From positions 1 through 39,090 of the forward strand of contig CAMDED010000068.1 of the NCBI GenBank assembly GCA_945893365.1: a stretch of DNA of 39,090 bases, given 5' to 3'. Shown here piece by piece: positions 6,295 through 15,522 of the stretch. Source of the DNA: Candidatus Sulfopaludibacter sp. SbA3 (lineage in GTDB: Bacteria > Acidobacteriota > Terriglobia > Bryobacterales > Bryobacteraceae). The number at the start of each line of letters is the position of its first letter. The first letter of the stretch is position 1. The position numbers and the translations under genes were made by a program. The notes beneath the pieces are model-generated. The model made no database searches, was not told where the DNA came from, and saw only the letters and a list, made by a program, of their open reading frames with translations.

Positions 6295-6329
6295 GCGCAA
6301 GTTGAGATCGCGTTCTCGTGTGTACAACA

Positions 6330-8168
6330 ATGACCAGTATGTTCATGATGCTGCGCAGCATGTTCCTGGCTATATCGATCACCGCGGCCGCCAGTGCGGC
6401 CGACTGGCCGGTGTACGGCGGAGATCCAGGCACCAGCCGCTATTCGCCCCTGAAGCAGATCAACACCGCAAACGCCGCTACTCTCAAGAAGGCCTGGACA
6501 TTCCACACGGGTGACAAGACCGACCGGCCCGTGACGCAAATTCAGTGCACTCCGATTGTGGTGGACGGAATTATGTACGTCACGAGCGCCCAATTGAAAG
6601 TGATTGCGTTGCGCGCCGCCACGGGCGAGAAACTCTGGACCTACGATCCTTTTGCCGGGATCGACGACGAGCGGCCGCGGGGCGTGAGCCGCGGGGTCTC
6701 CTATTGGACCAACGGAAAGGACAAGCGGATTCTCTTCACGTATCGCGCCCGGCTCGTGTCGCTCGATGCAACCACGGGAAAACCCGCCGCGTCGTTCGGC
6801 GACAACGGGCAAGTGGACCTGACGCGTGGTCTTGACCGCGACATCACCGGCCTTGCCTACTACGTTACGACGCCCGGCGTGGTGTTTCGGGATACCCTCA
6901 TCCTCGGATCGACGACAGGTGAAGGACCGCGCCTGTCCGCTCCCGGCCACGTTCGCGCCTTCGATGTGCGCACCGGGAAGCAGAAGTGGATCTTCCACAC
7001 GATTCCGCATCCGGGAGAGTTCGGCTACGAAACGTGGTCGCCCGATTCCTGGAAGCACTCCGGCGGGACAAATGTGTGGGGAGGCCTCACGGTTGACGTG
7101 AAGCGCGGTCTGGTGTTTCTCGCCACGGGCTCCCCGACGTTCGATTTCTGGGGCGGCGATCGCATCGGCGACAACCTCTTCGGCAACTCGGTGGTGGCCC
7201 TGGATGCCACGACCGGCCGGCGAGTTTGGCATTTCCAGGTGGTTCATCACGACGTTTGGGATTACGACCTGGCGAACGCGCCTTCGCTGGTCACGCTCAA
7301 GCGCGATGGGCGGCCGGTGGATGCGCTTGTTCAGGTGTCGAAAATGGGGCTTGTCTTCGTTTTTGACCGCGCCTCGGGCAAGCCTCTTTTTCCGATTGAG
7401 GAGAGACCGATCCCGGCGTCCGACGTGCCCGGCGAAGTGCTCTCCCGCACGCAGCCGTTTCCCGTGAAACCGCCTCCCATCAGCCGTCAGCGCCTGACCG
7501 AAGAAGACCTCACGGACATCACGCCGGAAAAGCGCGCCTATATCCTGGAGCGTTACCGCAAGCTGCGGGCGGGGAACATTTACACGCCGCCCAGCATTCA
7601 AGGTACCCTCATCTATCCCGGATTCAACGGCGGCGCGAACTGGGGTGGGGCGTCCGTCGACCCCGAGAATGGACTGCTCTTCATCAACTCGAATGAGAGT
7701 GTGAATTGGATGACGCTGAAGAAGGCTGAGGCCGGGGCCGGATACACATTCGATTTTCAGGGCTACACGCAATTGCTCGACGACGAGGACTACCCGTCGA
7801 TGAAACCGCCATGGGGCTGGCTCACGGCGATCGACTTGAATTCCGGCGATTTCCGCTGGCGGATCTCGTTCGGCGAGCACCCGGAATTGACCGCGCGCGG
7901 CATCCCGCCGACGGGGACGACGAACTTCGGAGGATCCATCGCCACCGCCGGCGGCCTGATCTTTATCGGCGCCACTCAGGACTACAAGTTTCGCGCCTTT
8001 CATTCCGCCACCGGCAAAGTAGCGTGGGAAACACAACTGGAGACCGGAGCCTATGCGACGCCTTGCACCTACGAGGTCAAGGGCAAGCAATACGTCGCTG
8101 TCGCCGTGGGCGGAGGGCGGTGGAAGAGTCCGGCGGGGGATTCGTTCGTGGCCTTCGCGCTTCCATGA
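6330..8168 (+). CDS. PQQ-dependent dehydrogenase (membrane glucose dehydrogenase-like quinoprotein)
   Basis: About 612 residues of eight-bladed quinoprotein propeller. The start of the mature protein (DWPVYGGDPGTSRYSPLKQI) and the segments NWGGASVDPENGLLFINSN, GGSIATAGGLIFIGAT and FRAFHSATGKVAWE are typical of the PQQ glucose/alcohol dehydrogenase family. These oxidise a sugar or alcohol in the periplasm and pass electrons to quinone or cytochrome. A signal peptide (SMFLAISITAAASA) precedes the mature part. The frame allows GTG 6318 or ATG 6330/6339; 6330 is chosen, with no clear ribosome site to decide. It lacks the five-helix membrane anchor of E. coli Gcd, so it should be soluble or loosely bound. 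Its stop overlaps the start of a multiheme cytochrome, a probable electron acceptor. Confidence 0.9.
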   Translation: MTSMFMMLRSMFLAISITAAASAADWPVYGGDPGTSRYSPLKQINTANAATLKKAWTFHTGDKTDRPVTQIQCTPIVVDGIMYVTSAQLKVIALRAATGEKLWTYDPFAGIDDERPRGVSRGVSYWTNGKDKRILFTYRARLVSLDATTGKPAASFGDNGQVDLTRGLDRDITGLAYYVTTPGVVFRDTLILGSTTGEGPRLSAPGHVRAFDVRTGKQKWIFHTIPHPGEFGYETWSPDSWKHSGGTNVWGGLTVDVKRGLVFLATGSPTFDFWGGDRIGDNLFGNSVVALDATTGRRVWHFQVVHHDVWDYDLANAPSLVTLKRDGRPVDALVQVSKMGLVFVFDRASGKPLFPIEERPIPASDVPGEVLSRTQPFPVKPPPISRQRLTEEDLTDITPEKRAYILERYRKLRAGNIYTPPSIQGTLIYPGFNGGANWGGASVDPENGLLFINSNESVNWMTLKKAEAGAGYTFDFQGYTQLLDDEDYPSMKPPWGWLTAIDLNSGDFRWRISFGEHPELTARGIPPTGTTNFGGSIATAGGLIFIGATQDYKFRAFHSATGKVAWETQLETGAYATPCTYEVKGKQYVAVAVGGGRWKSPAGDSFVAFALP

Positions 8169-8671
8169 CGGTTCGCGGACTTTTAATTCTTGTGCTCACC
8201 GCGGCCGCTGTGGCGCAGAAGGAGCCGCGGCCTCCGGTCGGCGCCCGGCCGGCGCAACCGCTTCCGTTCAGCCACCTCGTGCACGCGGGTACCGGGCTCA
8301 AGTGTACGGAATGCCACATGACGGCGGCGACTGCGAGCGCGGCGGGAATGCCCGCCGTCGATTTCTGCATGCGCTGTCATGTCGCGATCAAGAAGGACAG
8401 CGCCGCAATCGTCACTCTGGCTCAGCACCGGAAGGATAAGAAGGCTGTCGAGTGGATTCCTCTTTACCGGCTTCCGGCATTTGTATACTTCTCTCACCGG
8501 CGTCACCACGTAAAGGGGCAGATCGCCTGTGAGGCTTGTCACGGAGAGGTTGCCCGGCAGAGTGTATTGTCAAAGGAAAAATCCATCGCCATGTCAGCCT
8601 GCCAGGCGTGTCATGACAAACGCAAGGCGAACAATAACTGCGATGCGTGCCATGACCCGCATCCGGGCTAA
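8165..8671 (+). CDS. Periplasmic five-heme cytochrome c (c7/c3-like)
   Basis: A 168-residue exported protein (signal MTVRGLLILVLTAAAVAQ) with five CXXCH heme sites: CTECH, CMRCH, CEACH, CQACH and CDACH. Histidines in FSHLVHAG, LAQHRK and FSHRRHH are candidate sixth ligands. The pattern of heme sites and FSHxxH motifs fits class III/cytochrome c7-type multiheme proteins. ATG 8165 overlaps the TGA of the quinoprotein gene by 4 nt, so the two are translationally coupled. The natural reading is that it takes electrons from the PQQ enzyme, which is an inference. Its stop also overlaps by 4 nt the stop of the convergent antitoxin gene at 8668. Confidence 0.9.
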   Translation: MTVRGLLILVLTAAAVAQKEPRPPVGARPAQPLPFSHLVHAGTGLKCTECHMTAATASAAGMPAVDFCMRCHVAIKKDSAAIVTLAQHRKDKKAVEWIPLYRLPAFVYFSHRRHHVKGQIACEACHGEVARQSVLSKEKSIAMSACQACHDKRKANNNCDACHDPHPG

Positions 8672-8967: not shown

Positions 8968-9117
8968 AGACTCTTCTCTCTCCTTGGTTCATGGCGCGAG
9001 GCCCTGACAGCTTCGTGTCGCCCAACACCGCCGTGGACTCCCGCTAACGCGCGGTGGCTCGTTCAACCACGCATCCCTTCCTAAAATGCCATAATCTTAA
9101 ATCGCCGTAACAACGCC

Positions 9118-12090
9118 ATGGACGAAGAACGCCGAGAACGAATCCGCTACTACGCCTTCGCCGCATTCGTAGGCGTCCTGCTACTCCTCAATTTCACCGG
9201 CATCTTCAAAACTATATTCGGCATCGACACCGCCGCGATCATCACGCTGCTCGCCGGCTACAAGACTTTCAACAACGCCATCCAGGCACTCCTCGAAAAG
9301 AAAATCTCCGCGGATCTCGCCCTCTGCATCGCCGTCATCGCCGCGCTCGCGGTGGGCGAATACCTCGCGGCCGCCGAGGCCATGTTCATCATCCTCGTCG
9401 GCGAGGGTCTTGAATCCTACGCCGCTGGCCGCACCGAGGCCGCCATCCAGCGCTTCGTCCAGCAGCTACCCCGCGTTGCCCGCCTGCTCCGCGAGGGCGA
9501 AGAGACCGAGGTCGAAGCCGCGTCGCTCGCTCCCGAAGATATCATCCTCGTGCGCGCCGGGGAGCGCATCGCCGCCGATGGCGTCATCGATACGGGCGCG
9601 TCAAGCATCGACGAAAGCTCCATTACGGGCGAGTCCCTTCCACGCGACAAACAGCCGGGCGACGAAGTCTTCTCCGGAACGCTCAACGGCAACGGACTGC
9701 TTCGCATCCGTGTCAGCCGCGCCGGATCGGACACCACGCTCGCACGCGTCATCGCGCTCGTCCAGGAAGCGAAGCAACGCCAGGCCCCCGTCGAGCGCCG
9801 CGCCGATCGTTACGCCAAGTATTTCCTGCCCGCGCTGCTGCTCTCCGGCGCGCTCACCTTTTATTTCACACGCGACTGGCTGCGCACCGTGGCCGTGCTG
9901 ATCGTCGCCTGCCCATGCGCGCTCATCCTCGCCACGCCCGTCGCAATGGTCGCGGCAATCGGAGGACTCGCGCGGCGCGGAATTCTCGTGCGCGGCGGCA
10001 ACGTCCTCGAGCAAGCCGCGAAGGTCGACACCATCGTCTTCGACAAGACCGGCACCGTCACTGAAGGCCAATTCGAAATCGTGAAAATCATCGCGCACGA
10101 CCGCTCGGACAACGAGTTGATCGCGCTCGCCGCAGCCGCGGAGCGCGGCTCGGATCACGTGCTCGCCCGTGTCATCACCGCCGAAGCCGCTTCGCGCAGG
10201 CTCACCGTGCCCGATACCGAAGAGGCCAGCGTGCTGCCGGGCCGCGGCGCGCAATGCCTTGTGGACGGCCGCACCATTCGCGCCGGGAACGCGGCGTTCC
10301 TAGGGGAGAACGGCGTTCGCCACGCCGAACACCTGCTCGACGAGGCCGATCGCATCGGCGCCACTGCCGTCCTTGTAGCCGAAGACGAACGGCTTTGCGG
10401 CGCGATTCTTCTCCGCGACCGCGTGCGCGAAGGCGTCAAGGAAGCGATCGACGCCTTTGACGGACTTGAGATCTCCCACGTCGTCATGCTGACCGGCGAC
10501 CGCCGCCGCGCCGCTGAAGCGATCGCCCGCGAAATCGGAATGCCGAACGTCGAAGCCGAGATGCTGCCGGAGCAAAAGCTCGACCGCGTGCGTCAACTGT
10601 CGGCTCAGGCTCGCGTCGTCGCAATGGTCGGCGACGGCATTAACGACGCCCCAGCGCTCGCCGCCGCTAGCGTCGGCATCGCGGTCTCGGGCGCGAGCGA
10701 CATCACGGCCGAAGCCGCCGACGTCGTGTATCTCCCACGGTCGCTCGAGAAACTTCCGATCTTCTTCAAGGTCAGCAAAGCCGCGGTTAACACGGCGTGG
10801 CAGAACATTTTCCTGTTCGCGGGACTCGTGAATGCCGTCGCCGTCGTGCTCTGCGCCACCGGAAAGCTCGGCCCCATCGGAGCGGCTTTCACGCATCAGG
10901 TGTCGTCGTTCTGCGTGATGCTGAACTCGCTGCGCCTGCTGCGAATTGAACGTTCCGGCCCCTCACGGTGGGATACACTACTCGCGAAGTCGCGCTTGCC
11001 GGGGCTGTGGGATCGTCTCCGCGAATCCTTCGGCTCGATCGAGTTATCCGGTATTCTCGAAAGCGCCGCCGCGCACCGCCGTCAAATTGCCTACGCCGCG
11101 GCCGCGGTCATCGCGCTCAACGGCATTTACACCATCGGCCCGGACGAAGCCGGCATCATCGTTCGCTTCGGCCGGAAAGTGCCGCCGAACAGCGAACCCG
11201 GTCTGCACTACAAACTGCCTTGGCCCATCGAGCGGCTCGTAAGGGTGCAACCCCACCGCGTTCGCGTCGTCGAGATCGGATTCCGCTCCGTCTCCGCGCG
11301 GGCGGACGCGGAGCCGGCGTCCTATGAATGGAACGTGCAACACCGCTCCGGCCGTTTTCAGCGCCGGCCCGACGAAGCGCTCATGCTCACCGGCGACCAG
11401 AATCTCATCGAGTTGAACGCCGTCATTCATTACCGTCTGGTTCGACCCGAAGATTTTCTCTTTCGCCAGCTCGACGGTGAAAGCACGGTCCGCGCCGCGG
11501 CGGAGTCCGTCGTTCAATCGATCTCGACGTCCACGCCGCTTGACGCCATCCTCACCGTAGGCCGCCAGGCAGTCGAAAATCGCGCGCACACGGAACTGCA
11601 GAAGCGCCTCGACAAGTATCAGGCCGGCATCGGCGTGCTCCGAGTGAAACTCGAAGACGTCCACCCCTCGCTCGAAGTAGTCGACGCATTCCGGGACGTC
11701 TCCGGCGCATTCGAAGAGAAAAACCGCCTGATAAATGAGGCGGAAGGGTATCGCAACGAACAAGTGGCGCTCGCGCGCGGCAACGGGCAGGCGCGCTTAC
11801 AGAACGCGGCCGCTTACACGCTTGGCCGCAAGAACCGCGCGGAGGGCGATGCCGGCCGCTTCGTAGATGCCGAGCAAGCCTACCGCGGCTCGCCTGGTCC
11901 CACCGAGACCCGGCTTTACCTTGAGGCGATCGAGCAAACGCTGCCCGGCAAGCGCAAAATGATCATCGATAGCGGCAAAGGCAGGCGGCATCTGCTGTTG
12001 ATGGAAGATGGCGTCGAAGTCCCACAGCCGGGCCTGCCCGCAATCATTCAAACCCCGGTTCCGCCCCGCCCCCGCGAGGAGCGCGAGTAA
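9118..12090 (+). CDS. Fusion protein: P1B-type metal-transporting ATPase + HflK-like SPFH domain
   Basis: A single 990-residue frame. Residues 1 to about 620 are a heavy-metal P-type ATPase without an N-terminal HMA domain: membrane helices, actuator TGE at 170-172, the CPC metal motif at 265-267, phosphorylation site DKTGT with Asp309, TGD in the P domain, and GDGINDAP at 505-512. The usual nucleotide-site HP is His347-Val348 (SDHVLARV). The last membrane pair carries HQVSSFCVMLNSLRLL. After a linker, a new helix at about 653-672 leads into an SPFH domain of HflK type (DEAGIIVRFGRKV, PGLHYKLPWPIE, LTGDQNLIELNAVIHYRL), followed by a coiled coil and LYLEAIEQTLPGKRKMII. HflK normally pairs with HflC around FtsH. 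The stop overlaps the hflC start (TAATG). The metal and the purpose of the fusion are unknown. Confidence 0.92.
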   Translation: MDEERRERIRYYAFAAFVGVLLLLNFTGIFKTIFGIDTAAIITLLAGYKTFNNAIQALLEKKISADLALCIAVIAALAVGEYLAAAEAMFIILVGEGLESYAAGRTEAAIQRFVQQLPRVARLLREGEETEVEAASLAPEDIILVRAGERIAADGVIDTGASSIDESSITGESLPRDKQPGDEVFSGTLNGNGLLRIRVSRAGSDTTLARVIALVQEAKQRQAPVERRADRYAKYFLPALLLSGALTFYFTRDWLRTVAVLIVACPCALILATPVAMVAAIGGLARRGILVRGGNVLEQAAKVDTIVFDKTGTVTEGQFEIVKIIAHDRSDNELIALAAAAERGSDHVLARVITAEAASRRLTVPDTEEASVLPGRGAQCLVDGRTIRAGNAAFLGENGVRHAEHLLDEADRIGATAVLVAEDERLCGAILLRDRVREGVKEAIDAFDGLEISHVVMLTGDRRRAAEAIAREIGMPNVEAEMLPEQKLDRVRQLSAQARVVAMVGDGINDAPALAAASVGIAVSGASDITAEAADVVYLPRSLEKLPIFFKVSKAAVNTAWQNIFLFAGLVNAVAVVLCATGKLGPIGAAFTHQVSSFCVMLNSLRLLRIERSGPSRWDTLLAKSRLPGLWDRLRESFGSIELSGILESAAAHRRQIAYAAAAVIALNGIYTIGPDEAGIIVRFGRKVPPNSEPGLHYKLPWPIERLVRVQPHRVRVVEIGFRSVSARADAEPASYEWNVQHRSGRFQRRPDEALMLTGDQNLIELNAVIHYRLVRPEDFLFRQLDGESTVRAAAESVVQSISTSTPLDAILTVGRQAVENRAHTELQKRLDKYQAGIGVLRVKLEDVHPSLEVVDAFRDVSGAFEEKNRLINEAEGYRNEQVALARGNGQARLQNAAAYTLGRKNRAEGDAGRFVDAEQAYRGSPGPTETRLYLEAIEQTLPGKRKMIIDSGKGRRHLLLMEDGVEVPQPGLPAIIQTPVPPRPREERE

Positions 12091-12977
12091 TGCAACGCTA
12101 CCGAAAATATTATCCGGCCGCAGCCGTACTCGGCGGTCTTCTGCTCATTTATCTTTCGTTCTTCACCGTGAGTGAAACCGAGTTTGTGCTGGTCACGCAA
12201 TTTGGCCGCCCTCTCTATACGGTCACCGAAGCGGGCCTCAGCGCGAAGTGGCCCTTCCAGACTTCGCTTTATTTCGATAAGCGCCTGCGCGTCTACAACC
12301 CGCGGCCTTCCGAGTTCCTCACGCGCGACAAGAAGAATATCGTCATCGAGAACTACGTCGTGTGGAAGATTCAGGATCCGAATCGCTTCGTCCAGACCGT
12401 GGGCGATGCCACGGCCGGCGAGATGCGCCTGCACGACATCATCTGGAGCGGCCTCTCCGCGGCCCTTGGAACGCACGATCTCGACTTGATCGTTTCGACG
12501 AACCCCGATAAGATTCAGGCCTCGCAAGTGCTCGACAACCTGACCGCCCAAAGCGACCGTGCGGCGCTCGAGCAGTACGGCATCAACGTGGTCGATGTGC
12601 GGGTCAAGAGGCTCAACTTGCCTGAGCAGAACAAGCAAAGCGTCTACGCGCGCATGCGGGCCGAGCGCGAACGGATCGCTCGTCAGTACCGCGCCGAGGG
12701 GGAAGAGCAAGCCCTCAGCATTCGCGCCGACGCCGACCGGCAGAAGGAAGAGATCCTTTCCACAGCCTACAAGCAGGCTGAGAAGACGAAGGGCGAAGGC
12801 GACGCCGAGTCGACGCGTATCTATGGCCAAGCGTACTCGCGCAATCCGCGTCTTTACAAATTTCTGCGTACGCTCGAGTCTTATAAGAAGGTTCTCGACG
12901 ACAAGACTACGGCGATTCTGAGTTCCGATTCCGAGCTACTGAAAATTCTAATGCGGGGGCAGGCCGGCGCGCAATGA
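12090..12977 (+). CDS. hflC: HflC-like SPFH membrane protein
   Basis: A 295-residue protein of usual HflC length. A single N-terminal helix (AAAVLGGLLLIYLSFFTV) is followed by the SPFH core (SETEFVLVTQFGRPLYTVTE, AGLSAKWPFQ, LTRDKKNIVIENYVVWKIQD) and the HflC-typical VKRLNLPEQNKQSVYARMRAER. A charged coiled coil then leads to RNPRLYKFLRTLESYKKVL. In E. coli HflK and HflC form a large periplasmic cage around the FtsH protease and modulate it. Here the partner would be the SPFH half of the preceding ATPase fusion and/or the next gene. The start overlaps the previous stop by one base, which implies coupled translation. No ftsH is in the window. Confidence 0.93.
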   Translation: MQRYRKYYPAAAVLGGLLLIYLSFFTVSETEFVLVTQFGRPLYTVTEAGLSAKWPFQTSLYFDKRLRVYNPRPSEFLTRDKKNIVIENYVVWKIQDPNRFVQTVGDATAGEMRLHDIIWSGLSAALGTHDLDLIVSTNPDKIQASQVLDNLTAQSDRAALEQYGINVVDVRVKRLNLPEQNKQSVYARMRAERERIARQYRAEGEEQALSIRADADRQKEEILSTAYKQAEKTKGEGDAESTRIYGQAYSRNPRLYKFLRTLESYKKVLDDKTTAILSSDSELLKILMRGQAGAQ

Positions 12978-12984
12978 GGGAGTC

Positions 12985-13929
12985 ATGACGAACGAGACCA
13001 AAAGGCGCCGCCTTACGCAGGGCGTCTATGTTGCGGCCGGAATCTGGCTGCTCACGTCCGTCTTCCTGGTGGCCGCCGATCAACAGGCCGTGGTCGCGCG
13101 CTTCGGCAGGGTCGTGGAACCTCGCGTGTTGCCCGGTATTCATCTCGCGCTGCCGTGGCCCATCGATCGCGTCACGAAGCTCAAAGTTCAGCAGCTAAGA
13201 AGGCTCGTTGTCGGCGGCGATCTGCCCGATTCCGTGCTTGGACGCGCGCAGCCCCTCGCCTCGCAATTCCTCACCGGCGATCAGAACATCATCAACCTGC
13301 GCGTGGCGGTGCAGTATTCGGTGGGCGTTCCGGCCGACTATTTGTACCGCGCGCAAGACGCGGAGAAGGCCGCCGGAGCCGCCGTCGAAGCGGAACTCGC
13401 GCGCCGCATCGCCACTCGCAATGTGGACGCCATCCTCACGACCGAAAAAGCCGCCATTCAGGATGAAGTGCGCGCCGCCGCGCAGAAGCGTATCAACGAC
13501 TACCGCGCCGGAGTGCTCCTCTCCACGGTGAATATCGAAAGCGTCACGCCGCCGCCGGAGGCTTCCGACGCGTTCCGCGACGTGGCCAGCGCGCGCGCCG
13601 ATTCCGTGCGCATCGTAAACGAAGCGCAGGGCTACGCGAACGACTTGCTTCCGCGCGCGCGGGGCGAGGCGCAACAGATGCTCGAAGCCGCCTCGGCCTA
13701 CAAGCAGCGCAAAGTGAACGAAGCCGGCGGCGACGCCTCGCGCTTTACGCAGATTGAAGCCGAGTACGCGAAGGCCGCGGCAGTCACAGGCGATCGTCTT
13801 TACGTCGAGGCGATGGAGCAGATTCTGCCCCGCATCAGGAAACTGATTGTCGATAAGAACGGCAACCTCGATCTCACAATCATCCGCAAGTCCGAGGCGG
13901 CGCCGCCGGGGGCTCCCGCAAAGAAATGA
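12985..13929 (+). CDS. hflK: Second HflK-like SPFH protein
   Basis: A 314-residue protein with one N-terminal helix (GVYVAAGIWLLTSVFLVAA) and an HflK-type SPFH domain: DQQAVVARFGRVVEP, PGIHLALPWPIDRV, FLTGDQNIINLRVAVQYSV. The later segments SVTPPPEASDAFRDVASAR, EAQGYANDLLPRARGEA and RLYVEAMEQILPRIRKLIV are characteristic of HflK. It lacks the long Gly-rich N-terminal tail of E. coli HflK. A ribosome site GAGGGA overlaps the hflC stop, 7 nt upstream. With the SPFH part of the ATPase fusion, the locus encodes two HflK-type subunits for one HflC, so mixed rings are possible (inference). Confidence 0.92.
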   Translation: MTNETKRRRLTQGVYVAAGIWLLTSVFLVAADQQAVVARFGRVVEPRVLPGIHLALPWPIDRVTKLKVQQLRRLVVGGDLPDSVLGRAQPLASQFLTGDQNIINLRVAVQYSVGVPADYLYRAQDAEKAAGAAVEAELARRIATRNVDAILTTEKAAIQDEVRAAAQKRINDYRAGVLLSTVNIESVTPPPEASDAFRDVASARADSVRIVNEAQGYANDLLPRARGEAQQMLEAASAYKQRKVNEAGGDASRFTQIEAEYAKAAAVTGDRLYVEAMEQILPRIRKLIVDKNGNLDLTIIRKSEAAPPGAPAKK

Positions 13930-13942
13930 CGAAGTCGCTGAG

Positions 13943-14449
13943 ATGACGAAGGAACGCAGAGCGCGAGCCGTTACACTTGCCGTTCTTGCAGTAGCTCTCG
14001 CCGTGGTTATCGCCCAAAAAACCGGATTGCGGATATCGGAATGGACGCTGCCGTCGCTATCGACCGGAGCGCAGCCGGACGTCCCGACACCGCAGGACGC
14101 CGTCTACAGGATGCTTGACGCGGCGCGCGCGGGCGACGTGAACGCTTATGTCGCTTGCTACTCCGGGCAGATGGAAACCTCGCTGCGGCGGTCGATCGGC
14201 GAGACCACAGAGGCGGGCTTCGCGAAGTATCTCAAGGATTCGAACGCCGCCATTAAGGGCGTCGCAATTGCGGAGCCTCAGCTGCTGTCGGAGCGCGAGG
14301 TGAAGCTCCGCGTCGAGTATGTTTATCAGGACCGCAACGAGGCGCAGACGGTGTATCTGGAGAAAGCCGGTGCGCGCTGGAAGATTGCGCGTGTCGAGGG
14401 CGTCGAGCGAGTGAAAACGCTGGTGCCATACGGGACGCCGGTACAGTAG
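13943..14449 (+). CDS. Membrane-anchored NTF2-like/SnoaL-fold protein of unknown function
   Basis: A 168-residue protein with an N-terminal hydrophobic segment (AVTLAVLAVALAVVIAQ), then a Pro-rich linker (PDVPTPQDAVYRMLDAARAG) and a compact alpha+beta domain. The pattern (helix with AARAGDVNAYVACYSG, then strands with VKLRVEYVYQDRNEAQTVYLEKAGARWKIARVE) resembles NTF2-like or DUF4878-type domains, but this is fold-level resemblance only. The N-in orientation would place the domain outside the cytoplasm, next to the SPFH cage. It starts 13 nt after the hflK stop and looks like the last gene of the cluster. It could be an accessory subunit of the assembly. Confidence 0.7.
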   Translation: MTKERRARAVTLAVLAVALAVVIAQKTGLRISEWTLPSLSTGAQPDVPTPQDAVYRMLDAARAGDVNAYVACYSGQMETSLRRSIGETTEAGFAKYLKDSNAAIKGVAIAEPQLLSEREVKLRVEYVYQDRNEAQTVYLEKAGARWKIARVEGVERVKTLVPYGTPVQ

Positions 14450-14463
14450 AATTTCAATGGAAG

Positions 14464-14730
14464 TCAGACCCCCTTCAGACGCCCCGACACAAACTTATGA
14501 AGCAGGCTCGAGATGAGCGTCTGGTAAGGCAGGCCCTCCTCCAACGCGCGCTTCTGGATTGCCTCGAGATCTTTGCCTGAGATGCGGATGTTGACCCGCC
14601 GATCCTTCCGAAAAGTGGCGGCCGCGTAGCCGCTATAGCCCTTCTGCTCCTGCTTAAGTCCTTGTATGGAGCGCCACTCTCCCCGATCTACGGAATCGGC
14701 AATTTCCTTCTCTTTCGGATCAAGCTTCAT
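14464..14730 (-). CDS. CopG-family antitoxin, apparently orphan
   Basis: An 88-residue protein. Its sequence (DRGEWRSIQG, FRKDRRVNIRISGKDLEAIQ, EEGLPYQTLISSLLHKFVSG) is characteristic of a common ribbon-helix-helix antitoxin family that starts MKLDxxEKE. The start is ATG 14730; the frame stays open upstream to 15093, but the conserved family N-terminus sets the start. No full toxin gene is present upstream before the plus-strand gene at 14933. A short minus-strand frame overlapping the start ends IERYAYLRKETEDNEA and may be all that remains of a partner. Confidence 0.8.
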   Translation of the reverse strand: MKLDPKEKEIADSVDRGEWRSIQGLKQEQKGYSGYAAATFRKDRRVNIRISGKDLEAIQKRALEEGLPYQTLISSLLHKFVSGRLKGV

Positions 14731-14932
14731 TGTCTTCAGTCTCCTTGCGAAGGTACGCATAGCGCTCGATCCGGACCCCTCAAAGGGCACGCCCGTGAGC
14801 CTCAGTTTCTCACGCGCGTGCCTTTCTTGCCAGCAAGCTCCGAGAAGGGTTGCGGACAAGCCGGGTAAGCACACAGTGTCCTTAGCGGCATCTTCGGCCG
14901 CTGTTGTAGACTGGGTATGAACCGAGGTTCCA

Positions 14933-15169
14933 ATGCCACAAGCTTCTATCACGTCCGATCCGAAGATAATGATGGGCAAGCCCACGGTTTTCGGCACCCG
15001 GATAACGGTGGAGTTGATTTTGGAGAAGCTTGCCTGCGGGGAGACCGCTGACCAGATCTTGTCCGAGCATCCACGACTGACGCCTGAAGGCATTCGGGCG
15101 GCGATCGGCTTTGCCGCGGAGGTGCTTCGCTCTGATGTCGTCTACCCGATTGATAGAGTCGAGGGGTGA
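14933..15169 (+). CDS. DUF433 antitoxin
   Basis: A 78-residue DUF433 protein, complete for the family. ITSDPKIMMGKPTVFGTRITVELILEKLACGETADQILSEHP is the diagnostic block (imported winged/HTH-like fold), followed by the helix LTPEGIRAAIGFAAEVL. DUF433 proteins are typically the antitoxin or regulator of a DUF5615 PIN-like toxin. That partner follows here with a GTGA overlap of 4 nt, a typical toxin-antitoxin arrangement. The block above is cited as separate short motifs: ITSDPKIMMGKP, TVFGTRI and LSEHP. Confidence 0.9.
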   Translation: MPQASITSDPKIMMGKPTVFGTRITVELILEKLACGETADQILSEHPRLTPEGIRAAIGFAAEVLRSDVVYPIDRVEG

Positions 15170-15522
15170 AAATCGTTGCGGACGAGAGCGTCGACAAGCA
15201 GATTGTCGACCGGTTCCGCGCTCAGGGTCACGACGTTCTGTTTGTCACGGAACTCGATCCCGGCATCGACGATGAAACCGTCCTCCTCCAGAGTCGCCAA
15301 GCCAACGCGATCCTGCTAACCGCCGACAAGGATTTCGGCGAACTCGTATTCCGTCAACGTCTGCTTCACTCGGGGATCCTGCTGATCAGGTTTGCCGGTC
15401 TGACGCCCGGCGAGAAGGCCGAGTTGGTCGCGGCAATATTCGACATCTACGGCGAAGAGTTGCGCCTGGGATTCGCGGTTCTTTCCAAGCGCGCGCTTCG
15501 ATTGCGCAGGCGTTCCGGATAG
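15166..15522 (+). CDS. DUF5615 PIN-like toxin
   Basis: A 118-residue PIN-like protein. The acidic residues expected of this nuclease fold are visible: ADESVD near the N-terminus, TELDPGIDDETVL in the middle and LLTADKDFGELVF. These match the DUF5615/Mut7-C-like family, which acts as a ribonuclease toxin in DUF433 pairs. The start is GTG 15166, overlapping the DUF433 stop by 4 nt, so production is coupled to the antitoxin. The C-terminus is strongly basic (SKRALRLRRRSG). No later start would keep the first acidic motif. Confidence 0.87.
   Translation: MKIVADESVDKQIVDRFRAQGHDVLFVTELDPGIDDETVLLQSRQANAILLTADKDFGELVFRQRLLHSGILLIRFAGLTPGEKAELVAAIFDIYGEELRLGFAVLSKRALRLRRRSG

Follow-up and report, generated by a model that had tools for sequence, protein, structure and literature searches.

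Analysis of a 39,090-nucleotide (nt) stretch of Candidatus Sulfopaludibacter sp. SbA3 (contig CAMDED010000068.1, assembly GCA_945893365.1; hereafter the window) revealed an operon on the forward strand in which a P1B-type metal ATPase and a complete HflK form one protein, encoded together with HflC, a second HflK (HflK2) and, nearly always in operons of this type, a small protein. Three distant families of the phylum Acidobacteriota have the same unit. The pump is also exchangeable, as the same HflK-HflC-HflK triad carries other transporters on its first HflK in other Acidobacteriota. We favour, with modest confidence, the reading that the triad builds a dedicated SPFH assembly with a transporter for zinc-class metals in its wall.

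The fusion is a single frame of 990 amino acids (aa) at positions 9118-12090. Its ATPase half (9118-10947, residues 1-610) has eight candidate membrane helices, an A domain and the catalytic motifs. Pfam assigned E1-E2_ATPase to residues 117-287 and Hydrolase to residues 303-517, and the NCBIfam heavy-metal ATPase model TIGR01525 scored 553.8 bits against a cut-off of 346.25 over residues 66-607; with the TGE, CPx, DKTGT and GDGxND motifs, this places the pump among the P1B heavy-metal ATPases. Behind a basic linker, a predicted membrane helix (11077-11118, residues 654-667 in the structure model) precedes an HflK-type SPFH domain with a long helix (11125-12000, residues 670-961). This half was recognised by Band_7 (residues 672-877), by TIGR01933 (189.0 bits, cut-off 159.4, over 670-961) and by phmmer, in which residues 754-960 matched E. 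coli HflK (7vhp) at 2.3e-32. The start codon of the triad HflC (12090-12977, 295 aa; TIGR01932, 218.4 bits, cut-off 134.4, and trees) lies inside the stop of the fusion (TAATG). The unfused HflK2 (12985-13929, 314 aa; TIGR01933, 222.1 bits, cut-off 159.4) begins 7 nt further on, and 13 nt separate it from the small gene (13943-14449, 168 aa). An earlier sequence-only reading of this DNA had described the single frame joining a P1B ATPase to a full HflK, as well as the overlap or spacing of at most 13 nt between the subsequent genes, and both were borne out. The motif positions it had given (TGE 170-172, CPC 265-267, Asp309 and GDGINDAP 505-512) were also correct in an alignment of 32 fusions, where TGE, CPC, D309, G505, G507, N509, D510 and P512 are invariant.

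Among 150 genomes sampled from the order, 41 carried the fusion, 37 of them as one full-length match, including distant carriers at 57-69% identity. The four fragmented cases were due to contig ends (G143 and G103) or runs of N (G126 and G044), a TAG flagged in G117 leaves its 1015-aa frame unbroken, and the window contains no N. The 31 named relatives are all Acidobacteriota, found by a scan with exact window peptides that reaches close kin only. An assembly artefact or chance read-through might be feared as all 31 are metagenome-assembled, but the unbroken fusions, here and in other families, the explained breaks and the N-free window led us to reject it as exceedingly improbable. Homologues are thus not always two separate genes, the outcome that would have spoken against the sequence-only reading. 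HflC above the cut-off was found in exactly the 41 fusion carriers of the 150 genomes (in G126 on a different contig); the non-carrier G086 had a weak HflC. In the order, the fusion, HflC and HflK2 were in sequence at all 48 loci at which HflK2 was detected, copies of one genome from two collections each being counted.

In a sample of 396 genomes from the phylum, 17 fusions were found as single matches, and reading of the loci added G173, G199 and G445. These 20 fusions comprise 14 from family f50 (one genus), four from f23, one from f31 (G336) and that of the window. All four genes stand in order at 11 loci outside the window's family (f50, f23 and f31); in f50, seven of the 14 fusion loci were read, and the contig of one (L096, from G445) stops inside HflC. 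A split, pre-fusion homologue was also sought in the phylum, and none of the eight loci that encode the closest unfused ATPases (L097-L103 and L106) has a triad; L102 gave a weak HflC-like match of 41 residues and 33 bits. A plasmid search with the window protein returned only one place at 80% coverage, a Fusobacteriota pair of two separate genes. Fusobacteriota plasmid CP102407.1 was rejected as a fusion for this reason, its ATPase and SPFH protein being separate neighbours, and its ATPase clusters in the tree with the window genome's other P1B ATPase (L002). On the Fusobacteriota plasmid pZRK30-2 (L087, 2296-5697), a P1B ATPase with an HMA domain lies unfused beside an SPFH protein and a metal-sensitive regulator.

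The exchangeability of the partner follows from the presence of unrelated families, P1B, CDF and SO_0444, in the same place. Seven triads have a CDF transporter on the first HflK (L116, L117, L125, L128, L129, L130 and L135). Cation_efflux (Pfam) was over its cut-off in all seven, while TIGR01297 was passed by L116, L117, L125 and L128 and failed by L129, L130 and L135. Two HxxxD motifs, which we take to serve as metal sites in CDF proteins of the zinc type, are readable in these frames. Eight further triads (L118, L123, L126, L131, L132, L133, L136 and L137) carry an SO_0444/ArsP-type permease, with ArsP_1 (Pfam) over its cut-off in 8/8. NF033936 (cut-off 300), run on six of them with L126 and L133 left out, was passed by L118, L123, L131 and L132, and L136 (217.5) and L137 (229.2) were below. 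SO_0444 itself is required under zinc or copper stress (PMC3219624; this and the other papers are cited from the passages available). SO_0444 genes are mostly unfused: a match was found in 31 genomes, and five of these have a frame longer than 550 aa, of which those in G161, G208 and G325 are HflK fusions, and those in G179 and G157 had no HflK or HflC within the stretch fetched. A second HflC is present in eight f3 genomes; in the two that were read, it belongs to a second triad, of the SO_0444 type (L123 and L126).

In a fourth form, a membrane region without a family match precedes the first HflK and the P1B ATPase is a separate gene. The order HflK-HflC-HflK-ATPase was seen in L134 and on plasmids of Klebsiella aerogenes, Paraburkholderia sprentiae and Rhizobium tumorigenes; in L124 the order is HflC, HflK, ATPase, ABC ATPase, ABC-3 permease and long HflK. 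The membrane-type stretch ahead of the SPFH domain of the first HflK in L124, L134 and L152-L154 is approximately 250-345 aa long and had no Pfam match; it might be a further type of transporter. Altogether, the 396 genomes held at least 34 triads in 33 genomes, namely 20 P1B, seven CDF, six SO_0444 and one of the fourth form, a count that includes seven unread f50 triads and leaves out HflC matches weaker than 1e-25. Outside these classes stand G355 and G464 (cut contigs) and G247 (unread), and G427 has a plain HflK-HflC pair. Beyond the phylum, where plasmids were searched, nothing covered 80% of the CDF, SO_0444 or fourth-form first HflK.

In most triads the first HflK carries an insertion ahead of a conserved LTGD stretch. 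In the window this insertion contains WNVQH (W738-H742, 11329-11343), and both W738 and H742 are invariant in 32/32 aligned fusions. This WxxxH motif was present in 68/68 first HflKs of three kinds (56/56 distinct P1B, 7/7 CDF and 5/5 fourth form) and in 0/175 other sequences (0/72 second HflKs, 0/15 canonical HflKs and 0/88 HflCs), counts that describe and test nothing because the motif was found by inspection. The dipeptide WH alone is unspecific, occurring in 11 of 55 second HflKs of the P1B type.

The triad proteins appear to form a set of their own. The 14 fusion-bearing f50 genomes and four f23 genomes have an additional high-scoring HflC elsewhere, while G336 shows one HflC only; the canonical sets that were read (L119, L121, L122, L127 and L140-L149) are plain HflK-HflC pairs. 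In a tree of 45 HflC sequences, the canonical ones fell on one side (99/96) and those of the P1B operons formed a clade (99/99). When proteobacterial plasmid sequences were added, support for the first split went down to 81/62, so the separation of canonical and triad HflC is unproven at this broader sampling. In the window's genome, the sole HflK and HflC above the cut-off are those of this operon, and FtsH is present and unlinked to it. In E. coli, HflK and HflC are partners of FtsH and build a 24-subunit alternating wall on the periplasmic side (PMC12048511). The window operon shares the HflK and HflC families with that system but differs in its second HflK, its fused pump, its unlinked FtsH and the absence of an hfq-hflX context. 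The FtsH-contact arginine of E. coli HflK was dropped as a test, as the published number fell on a residue other than arginine in the numbering used.

The pump half resembles Cd/Zn- and Cu-type P1B ATPases such as ZntA and CopA in its catalytic motifs and CPC, and its best Foldseek matches were CopA (4bbj) and ZntA (4umw). It differs from them in having no Pfam match to an HMA domain, in the HQ and usually SS of the last helix and in the HflK tail, and it fell far short of the ZntA/CopA equivalog cut-offs (NF033775, 356.6 against 1240; NF007952, 334.2 against 1316). The HQ pair, H593-Q594 of the last pump helix, is invariant across the 32 aligned fusions, whereas ATPases encoded as separate genes have HN at this site (5/5). 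H347 is likewise invariant among the 32, with a variable following residue (V in the window); a His-Pro dipeptide in the N domain is presumably a feature of P1B ATPases. The fusion of one f50 relative opens with a His-rich stretch. In the ATPase tree, the fused ATPases formed one clade (100/99) and the separate-gene ATPases another (100/100). The two are not sisters in this tree, but the branch parting them is not strong (82/88); HmtA itself was absent from the tree. The structure model of the fusion shows the P1B helices, the extra helix 654-667, the SPFH strands and a helix at 852-924.

Signs of zinc come from the neighbours of other triads: ZnuA and ABC-3 at L133, ZIP at L123 and L126, CobW at L134, ABC-3 at L124 and zinc ABC genes beside the plasmid triad L153. 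A CusB/HlyD-type protein is also encoded near L123, and a Zur-box-like palindrome, found with a loose pattern, lies approximately 630 nt ahead of the plasmid triad L152 (L152:5884). Around the P1B operons, no cluster apart from the operon itself and overlapping frames was present in more than 10 of 51 loci. A protein of approximately 1000 aa (L045:3963-7058 and kin) is encoded near 10 of the 51; it has kin in three families and may be merely abundant.

How such an assembly would work can be sketched from the topology. The C-terminus of a P1B pump is cytoplasmic, and since the pump ends in the cytoplasm and the HflK helix crosses the membrane once, the SPFH domain should lie outside; the exit of the pump would therefore open into or beside the dome. 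We infer that, as in the E. coli complex of HflK and HflC, all three SPFH proteins (fused HflK, HflC and HflK2) join in one assembly on the outside of the cytoplasmic membrane, whose wall released metal would reach before anything else. Since two kinds of HflK are encoded per HflC, some places could be without a pump, and the unfused HflK2 may spread the pumps more thinly around the wall. The WxxxH insertion could present a ligand or contact for the metal or the pump, and the metal would most likely be Zn2+ (or zinc and copper). The gain would be local control of the released metal, or of the pump, in a confined patch. A cage around a transporter had been suggested by the sequence-only reading: the SPFH assembly is supported by the anatomy, the synteny and the repeated fusions to unrelated transporters, while the cage, the metal and the direction of transport are conjectural. 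A more specific version, in which unrelated zinc or copper transporters are fused into one HflK-HflC-HflK assembly as modular parts, the metal leaves the transporter for a space walled by protein beyond the cytoplasmic membrane, where it is handed on or held, and the WxxxH loop faces the metal or the pump, is one we put forward tentatively, as somewhat less probable than not.

Several observations weigh against the dedicated transporter assembly. The NCBIfam scores of the pump clear both the Cd-type and the Cu-type cut-offs, so a metal assignment from profiles gave no decision, and the neighbours of the P1B operons carry no metal signal (51 loci); for these two reasons the zinc link rests on the relatives. 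The full-length model of the fusion is modest (predicted local distance difference test (pLDDT) 75.2, predicted template modelling score (pTM) 0.52), and residues 726-762, which hold WxxxH, are below 50. WxxxH was picked after looking, many of the P1B sequences are closely related, and the motif is absent from the SO_0444 fusions (0/8), of which 5/8 have WH and L118, L123 and L126 neither. The permease of L126 is split over two frames, and in most of the tested CDF and SO_0444 fusions the HflK half stays below the TIGR01933 cut-off, although every one tested is over the cut-off for Band_7. Without prior overproduction, E. coli HflK/C purifies as an open shell and no closed cage (PMC12048511). 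At the hmtA locus of P. aeruginosa, hmtA mRNA was low throughout and added zinc had no repressing effect (PMC8531726), and a paFlo5-7 deletion left growth intact (PMC13086221).

This locus bears most directly on the question of whether the pump exports metal or, as proposed for HmtA, acquires or redistributes it in starvation. PA2439-PA2434 (HflK family, HflC, HflC family and HmtA) resembles the triads in having three SPFH genes and a P-type ATPase per unit, and the fourth form matches it in gene order, a match that was made on the order and names given in the literature and not on P. aeruginosa sequence. The plasmid units have a first HflK with a long membrane N-terminus and WxxxH, as in the fused triads with WxxxH; they differ from the window in their separate ATPase of another clade and in an HflK N-terminus without family assignment. 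PA2434-PA2439, which hold HmtA and HflC- and HflK-type genes, were up 5.6-14.4-fold in a znuA mutant (PMC4542158), Zur bound and shifted the PA2439 promoter (PMC8531726), and the PA2438 and PA2439 proteins were reported to be elevated under zinc depletion (PMC11761036). The paFlo5-7 deletion also reduced biofilm and weakened virulence in larvae (PMC13086221); from the operon description, not from sequence, PaFlo5-7 would correspond to PA2437-PA2439. Together with the uptake genes that adjoin some triads (L133, L123, L124 and L153), the induction under zinc shortage speaks for acquisition. On the other hand, P1B and CDF transporters are mostly exporters. SO_0444 is an exporter by fitness data (PMC3219624), and a review places hmtA apart from the Zur targets and holds that import by HmtA needs confirmation (PMC10393844). 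Operons of the window type have no uptake neighbours and do not follow the HmtA-type layout, their ATPase being fused at the front and belonging to a different clade than the separate-gene ATPases. We therefore regard acquisition as rather unlikely. The hmtA locus (PMC4542158, PMC8531726) also softens the statement of the sequence-only reading that no characterised example is known, although the passages available on it do not describe the pump and the SPFH proteins as a complex. In the titles and abstracts searched, which cover few subscription papers, no fusion of HflK with a metal transporter was described, and the words 'ATPase', 'transporter' and 'Solibacter' were not found in the text available of a 2009 SPFH survey (PMC2636767).

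Alternatively, the triad could be an adaptor that holds the pump beside FtsH for degradation when metal levels change, with a role in turnover and not in metal handling. The E. coli partnership (PMC12048511) is in line with this, as are the unlinked FtsH and lack of other HflC or HflK above the cut-off in the window's genome and the single HflC of G336. Yet each domain recognised on the first HflK is a metal transporter (P1B, CDF or ArsP_1; the membrane region of the fourth form has no assignment), and f50 and f23 own a canonical HflKC as well, which makes an FtsH adaptor improbable in our view. Similarly unlikely is a lipid-microdomain scaffold that merely brings pumps together and encloses no space. 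Titles and abstracts in the literature connect SPFH proteins with membrane microdomains, and the open native shell of E. coli HflK/C (PMC12048511) would fit such a scaffold, but E. coli HflK and HflC still build the alternating wall of 24 subunits (PMC12048511), and the fusion retains the long helix 852-924 in the model.

The last gene of the operon encodes a protein with a leading membrane-type helix (residues 3-26 in a model with pLDDT 84.0) and no Pfam or NCBIfam match at an E-value of 0.001. Ketosteroid isomerases and NTF2-like proteins were its top Foldseek matches (best E-value 6.3e-5, a ketosteroid isomerase), with low TM-scores of 0.25-0.44 by query length among the 50 matches listed. 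Of the small, membrane-anchored NTF2-like protein previously described, the leading helix thus stands, and the fold is probably NTF2-like judging from the model. The gene directly follows HflK2 in 45/48 order loci having HflK2; it lies 6 kb upstream in L045, and L046 and L061 yielded no such gene. Upstream of the fusion, a candidate extended -10-like promoter element, TGCCATAAT, lies at 9087-9095 on the forward strand, 22 nt ahead of the start codon. The word TGGCATAAT, one letter off TGCCATAAT, was found in 8/30 upstream regions; across 20 shuffles, no 9-mer was present in more than five. A shared dyad as a regulator site was sought upstream of the operons and none was found, only this extended -10-like word. 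In the window, a PQQ-dependent (pyrroloquinoline quinone) dehydrogenase and, after it, a cytochrome c7/c3-type protein precede the operon (6318-8671, Pfam), and a CopG-type antitoxin-like protein (below the cut-off) adjoining a DUF5615 protein lies behind it (14464-15093 and 15166-15522, Pfam).

The purpose of SPFH domes is an open question, and the best-known client of bacterial HflK and HflC is FtsH. Here the covalent fusion identifies the client directly as a metal transporter, which has been swapped among unrelated families while the triad stayed. The two further, unrelated kinds of transporter in the same place hint at a general device of a metal transporter in a cage. If the dedicated transporter assembly is correct, it would be a second defined role for SPFH proteins. 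With pump and wall in one chain, it would also be a clean system for cryo-electron microscopy, and it may explain the zinc-linked SPFH genes beside hmtA of P. aeruginosa.

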